10,528 bases of DNA. Source: Planctomycetaceae bacterium UBA4732 (GTDB taxonomy: Bacteria; Planctomycetota; Planctomycetia; Gemmatales; Gemmataceae). Of this stretch, positions 2,988-9,464 are shown one piece after another. The stretch is from the NCBI GenBank assembly GCA_002404095.1, contig DHJA01000034.1:600-11127 (forward strand), written 5' to 3'. How positions within the stretch are numbered: position 1 is the first letter of the stretch; every line of letters starts with the position of its first letter. A program made the translations under genes and the position numbers. The notes beneath the pieces are model-generated. The model was not told the origin of the DNA. It saw nothing but the letters and a program-made list of their open reading frames with translations, and made no database searches.

Positions 2988-3785
2988 TTAATCCCAGCCC
3001 AGGACTTCGACCGGCGCTTCGCCGTTCGGCCCCGGTCCTTTGGTGTCGCAATGCAGGACGCCCTTATCCACCTTGGCGAAGAAGAATCCCGGCCGGTTCG
3101 CGCCTTTTGGGTCAAAGCGGATGTCATATAGCATCAATCCAAGCGATTCCGACCACCCGGCCAGTGGCTTCTCGCTCCCGTCGGGCGCGGCGAAGTGACA
3201 GGCGAATTCCCGGCATCCGAGGTAAGGACAGTGAAAATACTGGCCCTTCACCACGCGCCGCTGGAACATACCAACGTACTTGGCCGGCGTATCCAGGCCA
3301 TGGTCTTCTTCGTCCTCCGGTTTGGCGCGCGGGCGATTGGCCCGGTTGGTCAGCAGGGGGGTGGCGTCGATGCGATAGGCGACGTGCTGAAGTATGAGGC
3401 TGTTGCGCTGAGTGCGGTTCTGTCCTTGCGCCCCTTCGCGGCCCGCCGAATCAACGAGGTACGGCTCAAACGAGGACGGGCTTTTCATCCAGCCCTCAAC
3501 CGTGCGCGGGGCGATCTTGCCCTGAATCTCATTGCGGCGAATGCCGATGAGGCGGTAAGGCTGTTGCGCCGCTTGTTTAGGGAAGTCGGCGGGAAAGGTC
3601 GGTTCCAAGACCGTGATGCGCCGGACATGCCATGACATCTGCGGCCGGTATACAATGGCATCTAGGACGCCGCGAGCGGCCGATGGCGTCATAAGGGGAT
3701 AGGAGAGCCTTTCCACCTTTAGTTCAGGCCGGGTGAATAGCGCGAACTCGCCCCAGACTTTGACGGAAACGATGTCGGCGGACAC
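2988..3785 (-). CDS. cas5c: Type I-C crRNA-processing endonuclease Cas5c (Cas5d)
   Basis: In type I-C, which lacks Cas6, Cas5c cuts pre-crRNA at the 3' base of the repeat hairpin and then stays bound to the resulting 11-nt 5' handle in Cascade. The 265-residue protein has the family opening VKVWGEFALFTRPELKVERL (residues 8-27), MTPSAARGVLDAI (32-44), and NRTQRNSLILQHVAYRI (123-139). Tyr46 matches the catalytic Tyr46 reported for Bacillus halodurans Cas5d. Where that enzyme has Lys116-His117, this one appears to have Gln133-His134. I start at GTG 3785 because AGGGGG lies 7 bases upstream and the VWGEFALF core follows at once. An ATG at 3827 would add 14 residues overlapping the small ORF. The small ORF stop is only 2 bases upstream, which suggests coupled translation. 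Confidence 0.94.
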   Translation of the reverse strand: MSADIVSVKVWGEFALFTRPELKVERLSYPLMTPSAARGVLDAIVYRPQMSWHVRRITVLEPTFPADFPKQAAQQPYRLIGIRRNEIQGKIAPRTVEGWMKSPSSFEPYLVDSAGREGAQGQNRTQRNSLILQHVAYRIDATPLLTNRANRPRAKPEDEEDHGLDTPAKYVGMFQRRVVKGQYFHCPYLGCREFACHFAAPDGSEKPLAGWSESLGLMLYDIRFDPKGANRPGFFFAKVDKGVLHCDTKGPGPNGEAPVEVLGWD

Positions 3786-3787
3786 AG

Positions 3788-3997
3788 TTAGACCCCCTGA
3801 GTTTGACCGCGTGATAATTTGCCGCACTTGCGAAGGTTCAAGAGGCGCCGAAGGATCTCGTCGTCTTCCATAGCACGGAATTCTTCTGGCAGGATGGCTC
3901 GGAATTCCGTTCGCTTCGCCGCCGAAGTGGCCATCCGATCCACCGACGTATCAAAGGAGGTGTACGCCCGAATCAAAGCATCGTTGAAATCGCTCAT
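3788..3997 (-). CDS. Small unidentified protein, first gene of the cas5c-cas8c-cas7 operon
   Basis: A 69-residue ORF starts at ATG 3997 with AAGGGG six or so bases upstream and ends TAA at 3788, two bases before the cas5c GTG. The protein is soluble and predicted mostly helical. The N-terminal half reads MSDFNDALIRAYTSFDTSVDR, and the C-terminal half is basic, with DDEILRRLLNLRKCGKLSRG. The LLNLRK.G.L.R ending recalls short conserved hypothetical proteins I have seen in many bacteria, but I cannot name a family. It is not Cas11, which is encoded inside cas8c, nor any standard I-C gene. Its place as the leading cistron, just after the guide-targeted promoter, makes a regulatory or accessory role plausible. 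That is inference. Confidence 0.72.
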   Translation of the reverse strand: MSDFNDALIRAYTSFDTSVDRMATSAAKRTEFRAILPEEFRAMEDDEILRRLLNLRKCGKLSRGQTQGV

Positions 3998-4018
3998 CGT
4001 GTCCCCTTGCTCTTAGTT

Positions 4019-4045
4019 TGGCAGCCCTGTTCACTCAGCTACTTA
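4019..4045 (-). promoter_or_regulatory. Pseudo-protospacer: predicted Cascade binding site at the cas5c operon promoter
   Basis: Read on the minus strand from 4045 downward, this stretch matches the pseudo-spacer at 4119-4145. Position 1 differs; positions 2-19 agree except at 6, 12 and 18; from 20 on the match is lost. The bases just before it (4048-4046) read GTT, not the usual I-C PAM TTC. The site starts 4 bases downstream of the -10 box (4054-4049) and spans the expected transcription start, so a bound Cascade should block initiation. Short complementarity plus a poor PAM would favour binding without Cas3 cleavage, as known for CreA/CreR-type guides. Confidence 0.75.
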
Positions 4046-4048
4046 AAC

Positions 4049-4078
4049 AGTATACCGACAGGGGCGGGGGGTAAACAA
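4049..4078 (-). promoter_or_regulatory. Promoter of the small ORF-cas5c-cas8c-cas7 operon
   Basis: On the minus strand, TTGTTT (4078-4073) and TATACT (4054-4049) are separated by 18 bases, a fair match to the sigma-70 -35 and -10 boxes. Transcription would start near 4042, about 45 bases before the small ORF. The -10 overlaps the palindrome GTATAC, which also offers TATACC on the plus strand, so a divergent start for the guide RNA here is possible but weaker. Confidence 0.55.
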
Positions 4079-4083
4079 GCCCT

Positions 4084-4118
4084 TTCGCGCATTTTTTCTC
4101 GTGCGCGCGGATTGAAAT
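4084..4118 (+). repeat. Single degenerate type I-C CRISPR repeat
   Basis: The segment begins TTCGCGC, like the GTCGC start of I-C repeats. It forms the hairpin CGCGCA (4086-4091) with TGCGCG (4102-4107) around a T-rich 10-nt loop, and ends CGGATTGAAAT. Type I-C repeats end TGGATTGAAAC or TGGATTGAAAT, so 10 of the 11 handle bases agree with the latter. The stem is shorter and the loop longer than in true repeats, and there is only one copy. That argues for a derived regulatory element, not a working array. Confidence 0.78.
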
Positions 4119-4145
4119 CAAGTCGCTGATTGAACGGTGTACATT

Positions 4146-4180
4146 GCCGGGCCGGAGTCTTCTCCGGTCCGGCACATTTT
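4146..4180 (+). terminator. Rho-independent terminator of the crRNA-like RNA
   Basis: A 12-bp stem pairs 4146-4157 with 4162-4173 around the loop TCTT, then ACATTTT. One pair is G-U in plus-strand RNA (4151 with 4168) but would be A-C in minus-strand RNA, and the T run lies on the plus side. The element therefore serves the plus-strand RNA best. It also sits just past the cas3 stop on the minus strand and may help end cas3 transcription. Confidence 0.72.
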
Positions 4181-6414
4181 CAAACCAACAATAATACATC
4201 TGCATTGTCCCCAACTAGCCCAAGCTCGTCGTCATAGCCGCCGCGCCAGACGAATAGCTTGTCTGCCTCTGGCCCAGCCGGGCAACCTGGCTTGGCCAAC
4301 TCGTAACGGCGCATGTTGACTTGGTAGGGGGCGAGTTTGCGGAAGTTGGCTCGCGTGGCGCGACGATGAACCGCATCCAACAAAGCTGCGACCTCCTTTC
4401 TTTTTTCCTCCCACGTCGCCACAACGACGCTTTCGCCGTCGTCGTCAATGAGCCGATAGGATTCCTTCACCTCCTTGAACGCAAAACGTTCGCGAGCCGG
4501 TTGAATCTGTTTGCCGTCAAGCGAGCCGGTGCGATAAAGGCGCTCGAAATACTCCCTCATATCCTCCACGGCGTCGATGCGCGGCTCGCGACCCGCGTTG
4601 AGGAAGGTCGTTTCCAGCACAGAGCGGCCTGCCTGATACCAGCGATCCGGGGGGTAGTATTTCTTCGGCTCCGCCACAGCGGCAGCGCTACGGAACACCA
4701 CAACCCGGCCGCCTGGCGATCCGTCTACGCCGTTCAGCAATCCCTCGCGGTTACAGCGGCCGGCCGCCTGAATGATCGCCTCTAGCGGCGCCAACTCCCG
4801 CAGCACGATCGGAAAATCAACATCTACGCCCGCTTCAATTAACTGGGTTGAAACGAGGAAGCACGGCTCCCCCGACTTCAGGCGCCGCCTTACTTCGTCC
4901 AACTTCGCCATACGGTGCGCCGGGCACATGCTCGTTGACAGATGAAAGGCGTTCCCTTTGTCCTTCAGGACGGCGAACAGTTCGCGGGCGGCCCGCTTCG
5001 AGTTGACCACACATAGGGCTGCCGTTTTCTCCCGCATCCGCTCCGCGACCTGCTGCCAGGTGAGCGGGGCGTCGTCGCGTTTCGGCCACTCCACTCGCAC
5101 GCGCCGCAGCCGGGCGAACAGGTCCAGGCCGGGCGGGGCGATTTCGGTCACGTCGCGCAACCGTTCCGGCATATCGGCATGGTCAAAGGCCGGCTGTGTC
5201 GCCGTACACAAGACAATCGTGCTTCCCAAAATGTCGGCAACTTGGCCGAGTATTGAGCAAGTTGGTGCGACAAACTCGGGTGGCAGCGTTTGGCATTCGT
5301 CGAGGAGGATAACGCTCCGGGCGATGTTGTGGAGCTTGCGGCAGCGACCCGGCTTATTAGACAACAGACTCTCGAAGAACTGCACATTGGTGGTGAGAAC
5401 CACGGGCGCGTCCCAATTTTCGGCGCGCCGGGCGGCCGCCGCGCGGGCGGTCTCGTTCATATCCTCGTCACCCGGCGGTTCGGCCAAGCTATGGTGTTCA
5501 AAGACGGCCGGGTCGTCGCGTTCAACTCCCAATGCCTTGCGCACCACGGCGGCGTTCTGGTCAAGGATGCTAAGGTATGGCGCCACATAGATCACGCGGC
5601 GTAGGCCGTATAGTTCAGCGTGTTTGAGAGCGAATGCCAATCCGGAAAGCGTCTTACCGCCGCCCGTCGGCACGGTAAGCGAGAACAGGCCGGGCTTTTG
5701 CTCCGCGGCGGCGAGACAAGCCTTGAGAACTTCATTGCGAATCCCGGCAATGTATGGCTCCTTACAGTCTTTCGCCCGTTCGACGATGTAGGCTAGGACG
5801 TGACGTCGCCACGCCACGGCGTCCAGCGTCGGCGGCTCCGGGAGCGGGGCGCGGCCATGGACTTTGTCATCATGTGCGCACGTGTCAGTCCAATCGGCAT
5901 CCACGAGGCAGCTGAAGAGAAGGCGGGTGAGTACGTCGGCAGTGAGCTTGTTTGGAAGCGGTGGAGAGGCGAGCGACAGTTTCAGCAGAGAGGGACAATC
6001 CTTAGCCGCCTTGGTCCAGACGGCGGCGGCAACGGGTTGGCCCGATGGACCTTTAATGAGGTCTGCAAGGTCCGCACGATCCGGAATACCACCATGATGG
6101 CCGGCGATTGCGAAGGCCACAGGTCCATTACCGGCGCTAGAAGCCTTTGCCGCCCCCGCTTGCTTGTGGTAGGTCAGTTCGCGCGGGACGGGCAGCGAGT
6201 GAAGATAGCTCTGGAACTCCGGCCGATACTTGCCCAGATCGTGCAGCAACCCCGCCGCGTACGCCGCGTCCGACAGCGGCGCATCACCGGGCCGGGCCGC
6301 CGCCATATGATCGCGAGCGAGCTGGGCCACCTGTTCTAGATGTTCCCTCAGCAACTGCCAATCGCCGTGGCCGGTTGTCGTCGATAAACCCGTATGGGCG
6401 AAAAACGAGTCCAT
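4180..6414 (-). CDS. cas3: CRISPR-associated helicase-nuclease Cas3 (HD domain fused)
   Basis: Cas3 is recruited to Cascade R-loops, nicks the displaced strand and degrades it while moving 3' to 5' with ATP. The 744-residue protein has an N-terminal HD nuclease with His25, LLHDLGKY (His58-Asp59), His83 and GHHGG (His106-His107) as metal ligands. The helicase follows: Walker A TVPTGGGKT (247-255), DECQ box (372-375), TATQ (404-407), STQLIEAGVDVDFP (about 522-535) and motif VI QAAGRCNREG (549-558). A ~180-residue C-terminal region completes it. All key residues look intact, so the enzyme should be active. The start is ATG 6414, with AGGGGG 4 bases upstream and the usual MDSFFAHT opening; an ATG at 6525 would run into promoter sequence. 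It appears to be a separate transcription unit from cas5c. Confidence 0.96.
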   Translation of the reverse strand: MDSFFAHTGLSTTTGHGDWQLLREHLEQVAQLARDHMAAARPGDAPLSDAAYAAGLLHDLGKYRPEFQSYLHSLPVPRELTYHKQAGAAKASSAGNGPVAFAIAGHHGGIPDRADLADLIKGPSGQPVAAAVWTKAAKDCPSLLKLSLASPPLPNKLTADVLTRLLFSCLVDADWTDTCAHDDKVHGRAPLPEPPTLDAVAWRRHVLAYIVERAKDCKEPYIAGIRNEVLKACLAAAEQKPGLFSLTVPTGGGKTLSGLAFALKHAELYGLRRVIYVAPYLSILDQNAAVVRKALGVERDDPAVFEHHSLAEPPGDEDMNETARAAAARRAENWDAPVVLTTNVQFFESLLSNKPGRCRKLHNIARSVILLDECQTLPPEFVAPTCSILGQVADILGSTIVLCTATQPAFDHADMPERLRDVTEIAPPGLDLFARLRRVRVEWPKRDDAPLTWQQVAERMREKTAALCVVNSKRAARELFAVLKDKGNAFHLSTSMCPAHRMAKLDEVRRRLKSGEPCFLVSTQLIEAGVDVDFPIVLRELAPLEAIIQAAGRCNREGLLNGVDGSPGGRVVVFRSAAAVAEPKKYYPPDRWYQAGRSVLETTFLNAGREPRIDAVEDMREYFERLYRTGSLDGKQIQPARERFAFKEVKESYRLIDDDGESVVVATWEEKRKEVAALLDAVHRRATRANFRKLAPYQVNMRRYELAKPGCPAGPEADKLFVWRGGYDDELGLVGDNADVLLLV

Positions 6415-6474: not shown

Positions 6475-6504
6475 GGTCGGTAGGCGATAATTCGCCCCGC
6501 CGGG

Positions 6505-6589
6505 CGTAACTTTTGATTGCGGCAATCGGCGTCGCCGACTCTCGCAGCGACAAGCGCGACGCCTGTCGCTGCGAGGGCCGCGGAATCAA
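6505..6589 (+). repeat. Palindromic mobile-repeat-like element, copy A
   Basis: About 85 bases start with TTTTGATTGCGGCAATC and end near GGAATCAA, an imperfect terminal inverted repeat. The core is a perfect 12-bp hairpin, CTCGCAGCGACA (6541-6552) with TGTCGCTGCGAG (6564-6575). An inverted copy lies at 7083-7169; the first 35 bases of the two differ at one position. There is no coding capacity, so this resembles a MITE or REP-type element moved by an enzyme encoded elsewhere. Confidence 0.7.
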
Positions 6590-6693
6590 TAGCTATAGCC
6601 GTGCCCCACTGACTTCCATACTCCGCTACTCCTATCCCCATTCGGCATGGTACACTTGGGGTCTTTGTCTCAACCGCACGCAGAGGACCGCTC

Positions 6694-6780
6694 ATGCCCT
6701 TCGACGACCCCGCCTGTTTCCGCCTCGACCGCATCCCGGTTCGGCCCATCCACTGGCTGTGGCGGCCCTACCTGGATTGC
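6694..6780 (+). pseudogene. Possible 5' remnant of an ATPase gene
   Basis: An ATG with AGAGGA 6 bases upstream, and a possible -10 TACACT at 6651, begins MPFDDPACFRLDRIPVRPIH followed by WLWRPYL. This resembles the N-terminus just before the Walker A region of RepA-like AAA ATPases, where an arginine/proline-rich segment and WLW.P.L precede the nucleotide loop. No GxxGxGK(S/T) motif follows. The resemblance stops at the bases GATTGCGGCAAC (6775-6786), which match the terminal motif of the flanking repeat elements. The frame stays open further but the sequence is arginine-rich and unlike a protein. The family match is from memory and weak. Confidence 0.35.
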
Positions 6781-6972
6781 GGCAACCCAGCCCTTCGCGA
6801 CGGCGTGCAGGTCGGAAGCGCCGACGGCGCCGAGGCGTCGTTGCGCCCGGACGCGGGAGCCGGCCAAGCGGCGCCTTGGCGCGGCCGCTCGGCGTGCGCG
6901 GAAGGACGGCCAAACGCTCAGGCAATGGTCCGATCCAGACTTGCCGCACGGCGCCGGATGACGCCGTTAAGG

Positions 6973-7014
6973 GTAAGGCCGACAGACCCCCGTCGCGCGC
7001 CGTGTCGGCCTTAC
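6973..7014. repeat. 12-bp hairpin related to the hairpin at 131-164
   Basis: GTAAGGCCGACA (6973-6984) pairs exactly with 7003-7014 around an 18-nt loop. The arm shares GGCCGACA with the terminator at 131-164, and both are preceded by GTTAAGGG. It may be a terminator remnant or a dispersed repeat. The rest of 6590-7082, apart from the ATPase-like remnant and this hairpin, shows no recognisable gene. Confidence 0.5.
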
Positions 7015-7053
7015 GGCCTTGGCCGGCGGCGAATCCGAGGCACGGACGGAACG

Positions 7054-7072
7054 AGCCGCGACCGTAAGGGAG
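7054..7072 (+). repeat. Partial copy of the GCCGCGACC..AAGGG palindrome family
   Basis: AGCCGCGACCGTAAGGGAG resembles one arm of the long palindrome at 9467-9533 and the truncated copy at 10509-10528. Only one arm is present here, so no stem can form locally. Confidence 0.4.
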
Positions 7073-7082
7073 GAGTATGGCC

Positions 7083-7169
7083 TTTGATTCCGGCAACCTT
7101 CGCAGCGACAAGCGCGACGCTTGTCGTTGCGAGGGTCGGCGACGCCGATTGCCGCAATCAAAAGCTACG
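7083..7169 (-). repeat. Palindromic mobile-repeat-like element, copy B (inverted)
   Basis: This is the inverted partner of the element at 6505-6589. Its core hairpin pairs 7100-7114 with 7118-7132, 15 pairs with one G-U and a 3-nt loop. Terminal motifs are TTTGATTCCGGCAACC at the left and the reverse complement of TTTTGATTGCGGCAATC at the right. It ends 39 bases before the GTG start of the oxidoreductase fusion gene and so may affect its leader RNA. Confidence 0.7.
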
Positions 7170-7208
7170 CCCCGCCCCGCTCTTGTAATTTCGTTGCGAG
7201 GCGCCGTC

Positions 7209-9464
7209 GTGAAGAAAACTCCCCTCGTCCGTCTCCTATTCCTCGGCGTCCTCGTCGCGGCCGGCGCTTTCTGCGCCTGGTATTTCCGTGACAAACTCGA
7301 ACCTGCCCTCAATTGGGTCCGCGATCTCGGCTATTGGGGCTTGGTCATTCTCGGTGCGGCCTATCTGCCGTCCGCCCTCGTCGCCTTTCCGCCCGCGTTT
7401 CTTTTAACCATCGCGGCCGGCGCCTTTTACGATATTGTACCGGCTGTTATCGCCATTTCCCTCGGCAGCACCCTGGCCGCGACGTGCGCCTTCCTCCTCG
7501 GCCGCACCCTCGCCCGCGGCTGGGTGGAGGCCAACGTCGCCAATCGGCCCGTTTTCAAGGCGCTCGATACCGCCGTGGCCGAGGGCGGTTTCAAGATCGT
7601 CCTGCTTACCCGCCTGTCGCCGCTGCTGCCGTTTTTCGTACTCAATTACGCCTATGGTCTCACCAAGGTGAAGTTGCGCGATTTTGTACTGGCGTCCTGG
7701 ATCGGCATGTTGCCGGGCACGTTACTCTATGTTTACATCGGCTCGACGGTGGGCAGCGCGGCCGCGCTGGCCGGCGGCAAGCCGCCCGACTCCGGCATTC
7801 TTGGAAGGGTGTTGTGGTGGGTCGGACTTGGCGCCACAGTACTCGTTACCGTCCTGGTAACGCGGCAGGCGCGGCAGGCATTGCAAAAAGCACTGAAAAC
7901 CAAAGAAGGCGACGACAAGGATAAGGGACCGCCCACGCCGCAAGGCGACGACCAGGGCGCCGAACCGCTGACGGTCGCGCCGTCAGACGAATTCAACCGC
8001 AAGCTGCTGGACAACGTCCATCCGTCCCACTGGGTCAACCCGGCGCCGCCGCCGCGCTATCATCTCGTCGTCGTCGGCGCCGGCACGGCTGGGTTGGTGA
8101 CGGCCGCCGGCGCGGCCAGTCTGGGGGCGCGCGTCGCCTTGATCGAACGGGACCTGTTCGGCGGCGACTGTCTCAACGTGGGGTGTGTACCGTCCAAGGC
8201 GTTGTTGCGCGCCGCCCGCGCCGCCGCGGAAGTTCGCGCGGCCGGCCGGTTTGGCGTTCACACCGGCGAAGCGGCCGTCGATTTTCCCGCGGTGATGGAG
8301 CGCATGCGCCGCCTGCGGTCGGACATGAGCGGCAACGACTCCGCTTTGCGGTTTCGCGGCCTCGGCGTCGATGTGTACCTTGGCGGAGGTCAATTCACCG
8401 GCAAGGATACGGTCGAAGTTGCGGGAAAGACCCTGCGCTTCCGGCGCGCCGCCGTCACGACGGGCGCGCGGGCGGCTAAACCGGACATTTTAGGGTTGGC
8501 GGATGTCGGTTATCTCACAAATGAAACCGTGTTCAACCTCACGGAATTGCCGCGACGCCTCGCCGTCGTTGGCGCGGGACCGATCGGCTGCGAGCTGGCG
8601 CAGGCGTTCGCCCGCTTCGGCAGCGAGGTTGCCTTGCTGGGAACACAACTCGTCCTCCTACCGCGAGAAGACGCAAAGGCGTCGGAGCTGGTGAAGCAAG
8701 CGATGGTACAAGACGGCGTGAAACTCTTCCTTGGCGTTGGCGTCGTGCGGGCTGAGATAAATGGGATGGACAAGGTACTTCACTTGGCGGACGGCCGCGA
8801 AGTGCGCGCGGATGCGATCTTAGTGGGAGTCGGCCGGACGCCTAACGTCGCGTGGCTCGGCTTGGAAGCGGCCGGCGTTACCTACGATCCAAAAAAGGGC
8901 ATTCACGTTGACGACCGCCTGCGCACCAGCAACCCGCGCATCTTCTCGGCCGGCGACGTTTGTTCGCGCTATCAGTTCACCCACGCGGCCGACGCCATGG
9001 CGCGGATCGTGATCCAGAACGCCTTGTTTTACGGCGGCGCCAAAGTGAGCAGCCTGACTATTCCGTGGTGTACCTACACCGAGCCGGAGGTCGCCCACGT
9101 CGGCCTATATGAGCATGAGGCCAAGGAGAAAGGCGTCAAAGTGGATGTCTTTATGCAAGAAATGGGTCACGTTGATCGCGCGATACTCGACGGCGATACG
9201 GAGGGATTCGTGAAGGTACTGGTTCACAAAGGTACCGACCGAATCGTCGGCGCCACTATCGTGGCGCGGCACGCGGGCGAGATGATTAGCGAATTGACGG
9301 CATTAATTGTCGCAAAAGGCGGACTGCGCACCCTTGGTCAAACGATTCATCCCTATCCCACGCAAGCGGAAGCGCTTCGCAAGGTCGCCGACGCTTACAG
9401 CCGTTCACGACTAACGCCGTTTGTCAAAGAGCTGTTCCGGAAGTGGTTCCGTTGGACCGAGTGA
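7209..9464 (+). CDS. TVP38/DedA-like membrane domain fused to FAD-dependent disulfide oxidoreductase (MerA/Lpd family)
   Basis: A 751-residue inner-membrane flavoprotein. Residues 5-25 are a hydrophobic helix; 40-220 hold the TVP38/TMEM64 (VTT) domain with several membrane segments and LLTRLSPLLPFFVLNYAYG (132-150). A charged linker (230-280) leads to the pyridine-nucleotide disulfide oxidoreductase: FAD loop VVGAGTAG (288-295), redox pair Cys321-Cys326 in GGDCLNVGCVPSK, NAD(P) loop VVGAGPIG (453-460), second FAD motif FSAGDV (579-584), and dimerisation domain to the end. The Lpd catalytic His is replaced by Tyr716 (HPYPTQAE), as in mercuric reductase, but the C-terminal MerA cysteine pair is absent. 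True substrate is unknown. GTG 7209 is preferred (GAGG 7 bases before, then MKKTPLV and a helix). An ATG at 7077 would add 44 residues, most of them from repeat copy B. Confidence 0.9.
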   Translation: MKKTPLVRLLFLGVLVAAGAFCAWYFRDKLEPALNWVRDLGYWGLVILGAAYLPSALVAFPPAFLLTIAAGAFYDIVPAVIAISLGSTLAATCAFLLGRTLARGWVEANVANRPVFKALDTAVAEGGFKIVLLTRLSPLLPFFVLNYAYGLTKVKLRDFVLASWIGMLPGTLLYVYIGSTVGSAAALAGGKPPDSGILGRVLWWVGLGATVLVTVLVTRQARQALQKALKTKEGDDKDKGPPTPQGDDQGAEPLTVAPSDEFNRKLLDNVHPSHWVNPAPPPRYHLVVVGAGTAGLVTAAGAASLGARVALIERDLFGGDCLNVGCVPSKALLRAARAAAEVRAAGRFGVHTGEAAVDFPAVMERMRRLRSDMSGNDSALRFRGLGVDVYLGGGQFTGKDTVEVAGKTLRFRRAAVTTGARAAKPDILGLADVGYLTNETVFNLTELPRRLAVVGAGPIGCELAQAFARFGSEVALLGTQLVLLPREDAKASELVKQAMVQDGVKLFLGVGVVRAEINGMDKVLHLADGREVRADAILVGVGRTPNVAWLGLEAAGVTYDPKKGIHVDDRLRTSNPRIFSAGDVCSRYQFTHAADAMARIVIQNALFYGGAKVSSLTIPWCTYTEPEVAHVGLYEHEAKEKGVKVDVFMQEMGHVDRAILDGDTEGFVKVLVHKGTDRIVGATIVARHAGEMISELTALIVAKGGLRTLGQTIHPYPTQAEALRKVADAYSRSRLTPFVKELFRKWFRWTE

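Follow-up and report, generated by a model that had tools for sequence, protein, structure and literature searches.

The solitary CRISPR-like repeat between cas3 and the Cascade genes in the analyzed stretch of 10,528 nucleotides (hereafter, the window) and the guide that follows it very probably form a type I-C CreR, a crRNA-like element that would send Cascade to repress the orf69-cas5c-cas8c-cas7 operon, as judged from the sequences of this and related loci. More generally, we regard it as probable that a one-repeat, hairpin-ended CreR occurs in Planctomycete I-C loci with Cascade genes apart from cas3, and that guide and target are rewritten together there with about 14 Cas7-presented positions held. 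The 27 guide-target pairs collected here would then record, on an evolutionary scale, base flipping in I-C Cascade, the length of pairing (16-17) at which binding occurs without cutting and, in one Cas8c clade, a change of the PAM from TTC to GYY.

Organization of the type I-C locus

The window carries a type I-C cas locus that reads, along the minus strand, cas3, gap, orf69, cas5c, cas8c and cas7c. Pfam and NCBIfam assigned cas3 (4180-6414), which lies upstream of the gap, cas5c (2988-3785, with a putative GTG start at 3785), cas8c (1168-2979) and cas7c (197-1171), all on the minus strand. The gap between cas3 and orf69 measures 190 nt. The first ORF downstream of the target described below is the 69-codon orf69 (3788-3997, minus), not cas5c; it encodes a small protein with relatives in the loci L053, L055, L056 and L121. 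An earlier reading of the window made from the letters alone (the sequence-only reading) had named the regulated operon as cas5c-cas8c-cas7, which stands for these three genes, and had missed the small extra gene at the start of the transcript. Since orf69 ends 2 nt before cas5c, the two genes are likely co-transcribed.

Elsewhere in the window, positions 6499-6577 and 7097-7175 form a 79-nt inverted repeat with 89 percent complementarity around a 519-nt stretch, an arrangement (6499-7175) as in a small mobile element. One reading frame at 7077-9464 combines a VTT membrane domain with a pyridine nucleotide-disulphide oxidoreductase (Pfam).

The solitary repeat, its guide and the hairpin end

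A degenerate 37-nt type I-C repeat, CTTTCGCGCATTTTTTCTCGTGCGCGCGGATTGAAAT, occupies positions 4082-4118 of the plus strand. By a gapless alignment made by eye, it lines up with solitary repeats of the same genome and with array repeats of relatives. This CRISPR-repeat-like element adjoins the cas genes and has kept its handle and hairpin: the RNA hairpin ends at nucleotide 26 of the repeat and is followed by the 11-nt handle CGGATTGAAAT. The guide, or pseudo-spacer, comes next at 4119-4144 (plus), its positions 1-19 being 4119-4137. RNA folding then places a stable hairpin with a short T-rich tail, CATTTTCAA, at 4145-4174 (plus), starting 26 nt after the start of the guide; the fold of 4082-4186 has -47.1 kcal/mol and a z-score of -5.6. 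This hairpin is likely the 3' end of the RNA; a strict terminator scan did not call it as a terminator. No second repeat follows the guide, and with its single repeat the element is not an ordinary CRISPR array of at least two near-identical repeats with spacers. Arrays were found neither in or near the window nor in the first 20,000 of the 21,772 bases of the contig. Rfam gave no match at its gathering threshold, and comparison of window positions 4000-4200 with phage records gave none either.

A search of the own genome (an assembly about 90 percent complete) found no I-C array and no I-C cas1, so an ordinary supply of crRNA is unproven. The sole Cas1 match of the genome falls on Cas4g/Cas1g in a type I-G locus. 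This locus (L027, contig C235) looks complete, with Cas3g, Cas8g/Csx17, Csb1, Csb2, Cas4g/Cas1g and an array. Five solitary I-C-like repeats, for example GTTTCCCCTGGCCTTCGGGCTGGGGGCGGATTGAAAC, lie on five contigs of the genome (L028, L029, L030, L031 and L015); in two cases a possible start codon follows closely. As candidates for further regulators all five were rejected, with no local target and a best match of 10/14.

Match between the guide and the start region of the cas operon

Guide positions 2-19 (4120-4137, plus) are identical to minus-strand 4044-4027, AAGTAGCTGAGTGAACAG, at 15 of 18 letters, with mismatches exactly at positions 6, 12 and 18. Re-reading the sequence confirmed this match as it was given in the sequence-only reading, which had omitted position 1; there C at 4119 is mismatched to T at minus 4045, a point against the CreR reading, and the identity over positions 1-19 is 15/19. 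The target site for these positions (4027-4045, minus) lies over the predicted transcription start. Two promoter elements were predicted by eye on the minus strand: a -10 box, TATACT (4049-4054), with 5/6 consensus letters, and a weak -35 box, TTGTTT (4073-4078), with 3/6 consensus letters and 18-nt spacing. The bases at the PAM position, GTT (4046-4048, minus), are the three letters that separate the predicted -10 box from guide position 1. The guide partly matches the predicted promoter region of its own cas operon. A consensus scan of the gap called neither a promoter nor a terminator, so both remain predictions; over four loci, such scans gave promoters for L055 and L056, and L055 alone had a terminator call.

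When the guide was shuffled 200,000 times, not one shuffled guide matched at all 14 of positions 2-5, 7-11 and 13-17 on either strand of the 190-nt gap, and 69 reached 15/19 in this gap in any arrangement. Given four mismatches in 19 positions, the chance that positions 6, 12 and 18 are all included is 0.004 for the window locus alone.

Recurrence of the element in Planctomycete type I-C loci

The first set of loci comprised the window and 64 others (8 of the window family, 3 from genome contigs and 53 of the class). A cas3-cas5c gap could be defined in 61 of these 65 loci, and 32 of the gaps contained repeat-like handles, 36 altogether. Scores were computed for every guide and the gap of its own locus, on both strands, at 14 positions (1-5, 7-11 and 13-16), so that the selection was independent of positions 6, 12 and 18. 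A single handle pattern and a single score were applied, which would miss forms with other handles, and many of the loci come from draft assemblies. A match of at least 12/14 to the own gap was obtained for 23/36 handles versus 18/2160 guide/gap swaps, and a match of at least 13/14 for 19/36 handles versus 1/2160 swaps. The sense handle of L088 was dropped from the 23 as a palindrome matching itself, which leaves 22 loci.

A second set of 40 further loci of the phylum was analyzed under unchanged criteria; 38 had a gap, mostly shorter than 100 nt, and 3/5 handles matched their own gap versus 0/185 swaps. Family searches yielded a last seven loci, six of them new since L227, with 15,037 bases like L033, is probably a repeat of that contig; in these seven loci 2/4 handles matched their own gap. 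The total is 27 guide-target pairs in 27 loci (22 + 3 + 2), 26 of them besides the window.

Across the first and second sets, the element is present in 25/99 cas3-cas5c gaps of Planctomycete type I-C loci (98 distinct gaps, as L034 and L125 are the same contig). Gaps with a length of 150 nt or more hold it in 25/56 cases and shorter gaps in 0/43; in the remaining 31 of the longer gaps the criteria used here revealed none. In the region upstream of cas3, 12/93 loci had handles, 13 in total, with best matches of at most 11/14. The restriction of the element to the longer gaps and the absence of matches upstream of cas3 indicate that it accompanies Cascade operons with enough space for a promoter of their own. 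The gaps of L049 and L050 hold a degenerate repeat that overlaps the region just before cas5c and is conserved in two genomes of one genus; no target was found for this remnant, and it was rejected as an element.

To look outside the phylum, a looser handle was applied to 10 of the 47 plasmid records that matched, and none of the ten reached 13/14. One 12/14 match in Zymomonas was rejected, as it lies in AT-rich sequence and has no proper handle. Tistrella mobilis pTM3 (L206) carries a handle, GGGTTGAAAC, an 11/14 match with TTC and a hairpin after the guide; it is below the threshold and is taken as a lead only to an element outside the phylum.

Covariation of guide and target

The sequence-only reading had expected guide and promoter to covary across homologous loci with drift at every sixth position, and this was found in the 27 pairs. 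Within the 22 pairs of the first set, pairing at the readable positions (2-5, 7-11 and 13-16) was kept while the guide letters changed, as would follow from the selection on readable positions that it had proposed. The 22 guides are mostly unrelated, with a mean of 4.8/17 letters in common. The guides of L127 and L128 differ at readable positions 1, 5, 7, 9 and 14, and each of these changes is matched in the target; their differences at positions 12 and 17 have no matching change in the target. L130 and L233, from one genus, have identical guide positions 1-14, and within positions 1-20 their targets differ only at 6 and 15. Evidence against strict covariation comes from L116 and L117, also of one genus, in which the guide differences at positions 15 and 16 are uncompensated and the pairing is shorter.

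Positions 2-5 are matched in 22/22 pairs, positions 7-11 in 20 to 22 and positions 13-16 in 18 to 22. Position 1 is matched in 20/22 and position 17 in 11/22, and later positions fall to background. Mismatches were observed in 17/22 pairs at position 6, 15/22 at position 12 and 17/22 at position 18; together these positions mismatch in 49/66 cells (0.74) versus 0.75 for unread letters (p = 0.89). Most readable positions had been used in the selection of pairs, so the fair comparison is with readable positions left out of it. Choosing pairs on positions 1-5 and 7-11 gave 24 loci, of which three are seed-only; mismatches then fell in 19/96 cells at positions 13-16 and in 55/72 at positions 6, 12 and 18. 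Choosing them on positions 1-5 and 13-17 gave 19 loci, with mismatches in 9/95 cells at positions 7-11 and in 43/57 at positions 6, 12 and 18.

In these alignments, positions 6, 12 and 18 drift freely and are neutral rather than always mismatched, so the three mismatches of the window are a common outcome. The drift proposed for the sixth positions was thus borne out; position 6 is matched in 5/22 pairs (5/25 in the larger set). The type I-C Cascade flips every sixth base like that of type I-E. PMC5904413 describes every sixth base as flipped out in type I-E Cascade and also reports that type I-E off-target sites match position 6 in 45 percent of cases, above chance. The 5/25 matches at position 6 in our pairs are unlike that figure and count against the CreR reading.

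PAM, handle and 3' stem across loci

The PAM, taken as the three bases ahead of guide position 1, is TTC in 14, GCC in 7, GTC in 2, GTT in 1 (the window) and CTT in 1 of 25 pairs. The GTT of the window differs from the TTC of most loci, which is a point against the CreR reading. In a Cas8c tree of 93 sequences, all 12 GCC/GTC/GTT loci fall in one clade of 31 members (support 0.98) that holds 0/16 of the other labelled loci (15 TTC and 1 CTT); three of the 28 PAM labels on the tree (L111, L121 and L122) rest on seed-only matches. The window belongs to this clade, whose other labelled members have GCC, GTC or GTT, and its predicted PAM fits the labels of 12/12 labelled members.

The repeat hairpin ends at nucleotide 25-27 in 23/25 pairs, leaving about 11 nt before the guide, the expected length of a Cas5c-cut handle. 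A second handle within 110 nt downstream was found in 0/22 loci. In 22/22 loci a stem starts 22-43 nt after the start of the guide, by a stem search that included no random-sequence comparison, and at least four T in the nine bases after the stem were found in 15/22 by our own count. The guide corresponds to the coding strand in 23/25 pairs; L088 and L182 are exceptions, with the target on the antisense strand. L116 and L117 are exceptions of another kind: their element lies close to cas5c on the sense strand, and an ECF-sigma-like ORF, named by eye, separates target and cas5c.

First genes of the targeted operon and alternative explanations

The orf69 family is rare, small and helical, with 14 database proteins including the window's own kind. 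Orf69 had no match in Pfam or NCBIfam, and the KilA-N domain typical of CreP was not found in it by Pfam. Comparison of its fold model (pLDDT 78.9) with the PDB gave nothing significant (best E 1.3); only weak winged-helix-like hits were seen. In L104, L109, L112, L113, L115 and L139 the place of orf69 is taken by small proteins of another group, marked by a DRLPYT motif and without a Pfam match; a test of kinship between the two groups by hhalign gave a probability of 16 and an E-value of 0.0016.

These small proteins bear on an alternative of the CreTA/CrePA kind, a CRISPR-regulated toxin-antitoxin pair in which the guide would act as the antitoxin RNA and Cascade would silence a toxin, either orf69 itself or the RNA of orf69. 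Such a pair would fit the place of orf69 directly after the target in the window and its relatives, and that of the DRLPYT group in six loci; CreTA also works by the same guide principle and has a cas3-adjacent place in Acinetobacter (PMC10097628). However, L102, L088, L119, L123 and L128 have no ORF of either group before cas5c, and in L102 the cas5c ORF itself begins within the target. The likely co-transcription of orf69 with cas5c, 2 nt apart, and its lack of a Pfam match also speak against a toxin. What the loci have in common downstream of the target is cas5c-cas8c-cas7, which favours autoregulation, and we consider the toxin-antitoxin explanation improbable.

The two copies might also lack any guide function and be an inverted repeat bound by a protein or the trace of an old duplication at this place, as they lie on opposite strands near the promoter region in 20/25 pairs. 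The site of a regulator would be common to the loci, whereas the guides share so few letters, and neither an inverted repeat nor a duplication explains why a handle immediately precedes position 1, why there is a PAM, why pairing stops near position 17 or why the period is six; the chance that this holds is very slight. It is just as hard to credit a CRISPR remnant in decay that matches by accident, an explanation that would suit a degenerate repeat standing alone in the window but not the shuffles, the swap control and hold-out loci, the 13 handles without a match upstream of cas3 or the recurrence in 27 loci.

Proposed mechanism

Under autoregulation by a type I-C CreR, the element at 4082-4174 would be transcribed from the plus strand. 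Its RNA would be trimmed to the 11-nt handle, with the hairpin replacing the next repeat, and the crRNA-like product would be loaded onto the type I-C Cascade of the same cell. Cascade would then likely be guided to the operon start (minus 4045-4027) and would block transcription there. As the guide has the coding-strand sequence, it can pair with the template DNA strand only and not with the mRNA, here as in all 23 pairs of this orientation. Full pairing recruits Cas3 in type I systems. With a PAM and pairing to about position 16-17, Cascade would bind the start region without cutting by Cas3, because the pairing ends near there. Free Cascade would in this way limit its own supply, and crRNAs or anti-CRISPRs that occupy Cascade would relieve the repression. 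Relief of CreR repression by crRNAs or anti-CRISPRs is described in PMC12737573.

If this reading is true, type I-C joins the systems in which Cascade regulates itself through a self-targeting guide, and the arrangement, compact and with one repeat, is common in one phylum. Each locus would amount to a natural experiment on the guide letters that matter, and genomes could be used to test how much pairing allows binding without cutting of the cell's own DNA and what PAM is recognized by a Cas8c clade.

Comparison with known systems

A limited search of the literature, with the original CreR paper outside its range, did not find a type I-C CreR, neutral sixth positions over many loci or a clade-linked PAM; that these are unpublished is not established. 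CreR has been reported for types I-B, I-E and V-A (PMC13131331). The window element resembles CreR, as portrayed in PMC13131331 and PMC12737573, in being a predicted crRNA-like RNA with a partial match to its own predicted cas promoter. It differs in belonging to type I-C, in having one repeat and a hairpin end, in a target within the cas3-cas5c gap that leaves out cas3, and in the drift of the sixth positions across loci.

The CreA of the type I-F CreTA of Acinetobacter is close in its pairing. According to PMC10097628, 17/20 positions are paired, with 6, 11 and 18 unpaired; guide positions 2-5, 7-9 and 13-17 are needed, and loss at 10, 12, 19 and 20 is tolerated. The needed positions come close to the readable set found here, and this CreA likewise has a PAM beside its target and a place between cas3 and the Cascade genes (PMC10097628). 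In contrast to the single repeat and the cas operon target of the window, it has two repeats and a toxic RNA as target (PMC10097628). The CreA of type I-B haloarchaea is described with one or two degenerate repeats and a guide that partly matches a nearby promoter, as here, but it represses the gene of a toxin RNA (PMC9458426). CrePA is similar in that a guide and Cascade hold down a protein gene (PMC12737573). Its CreP is typically a KilA-N protein in that account, whereas orf69 has no Pfam match and lies inside the cas operon.
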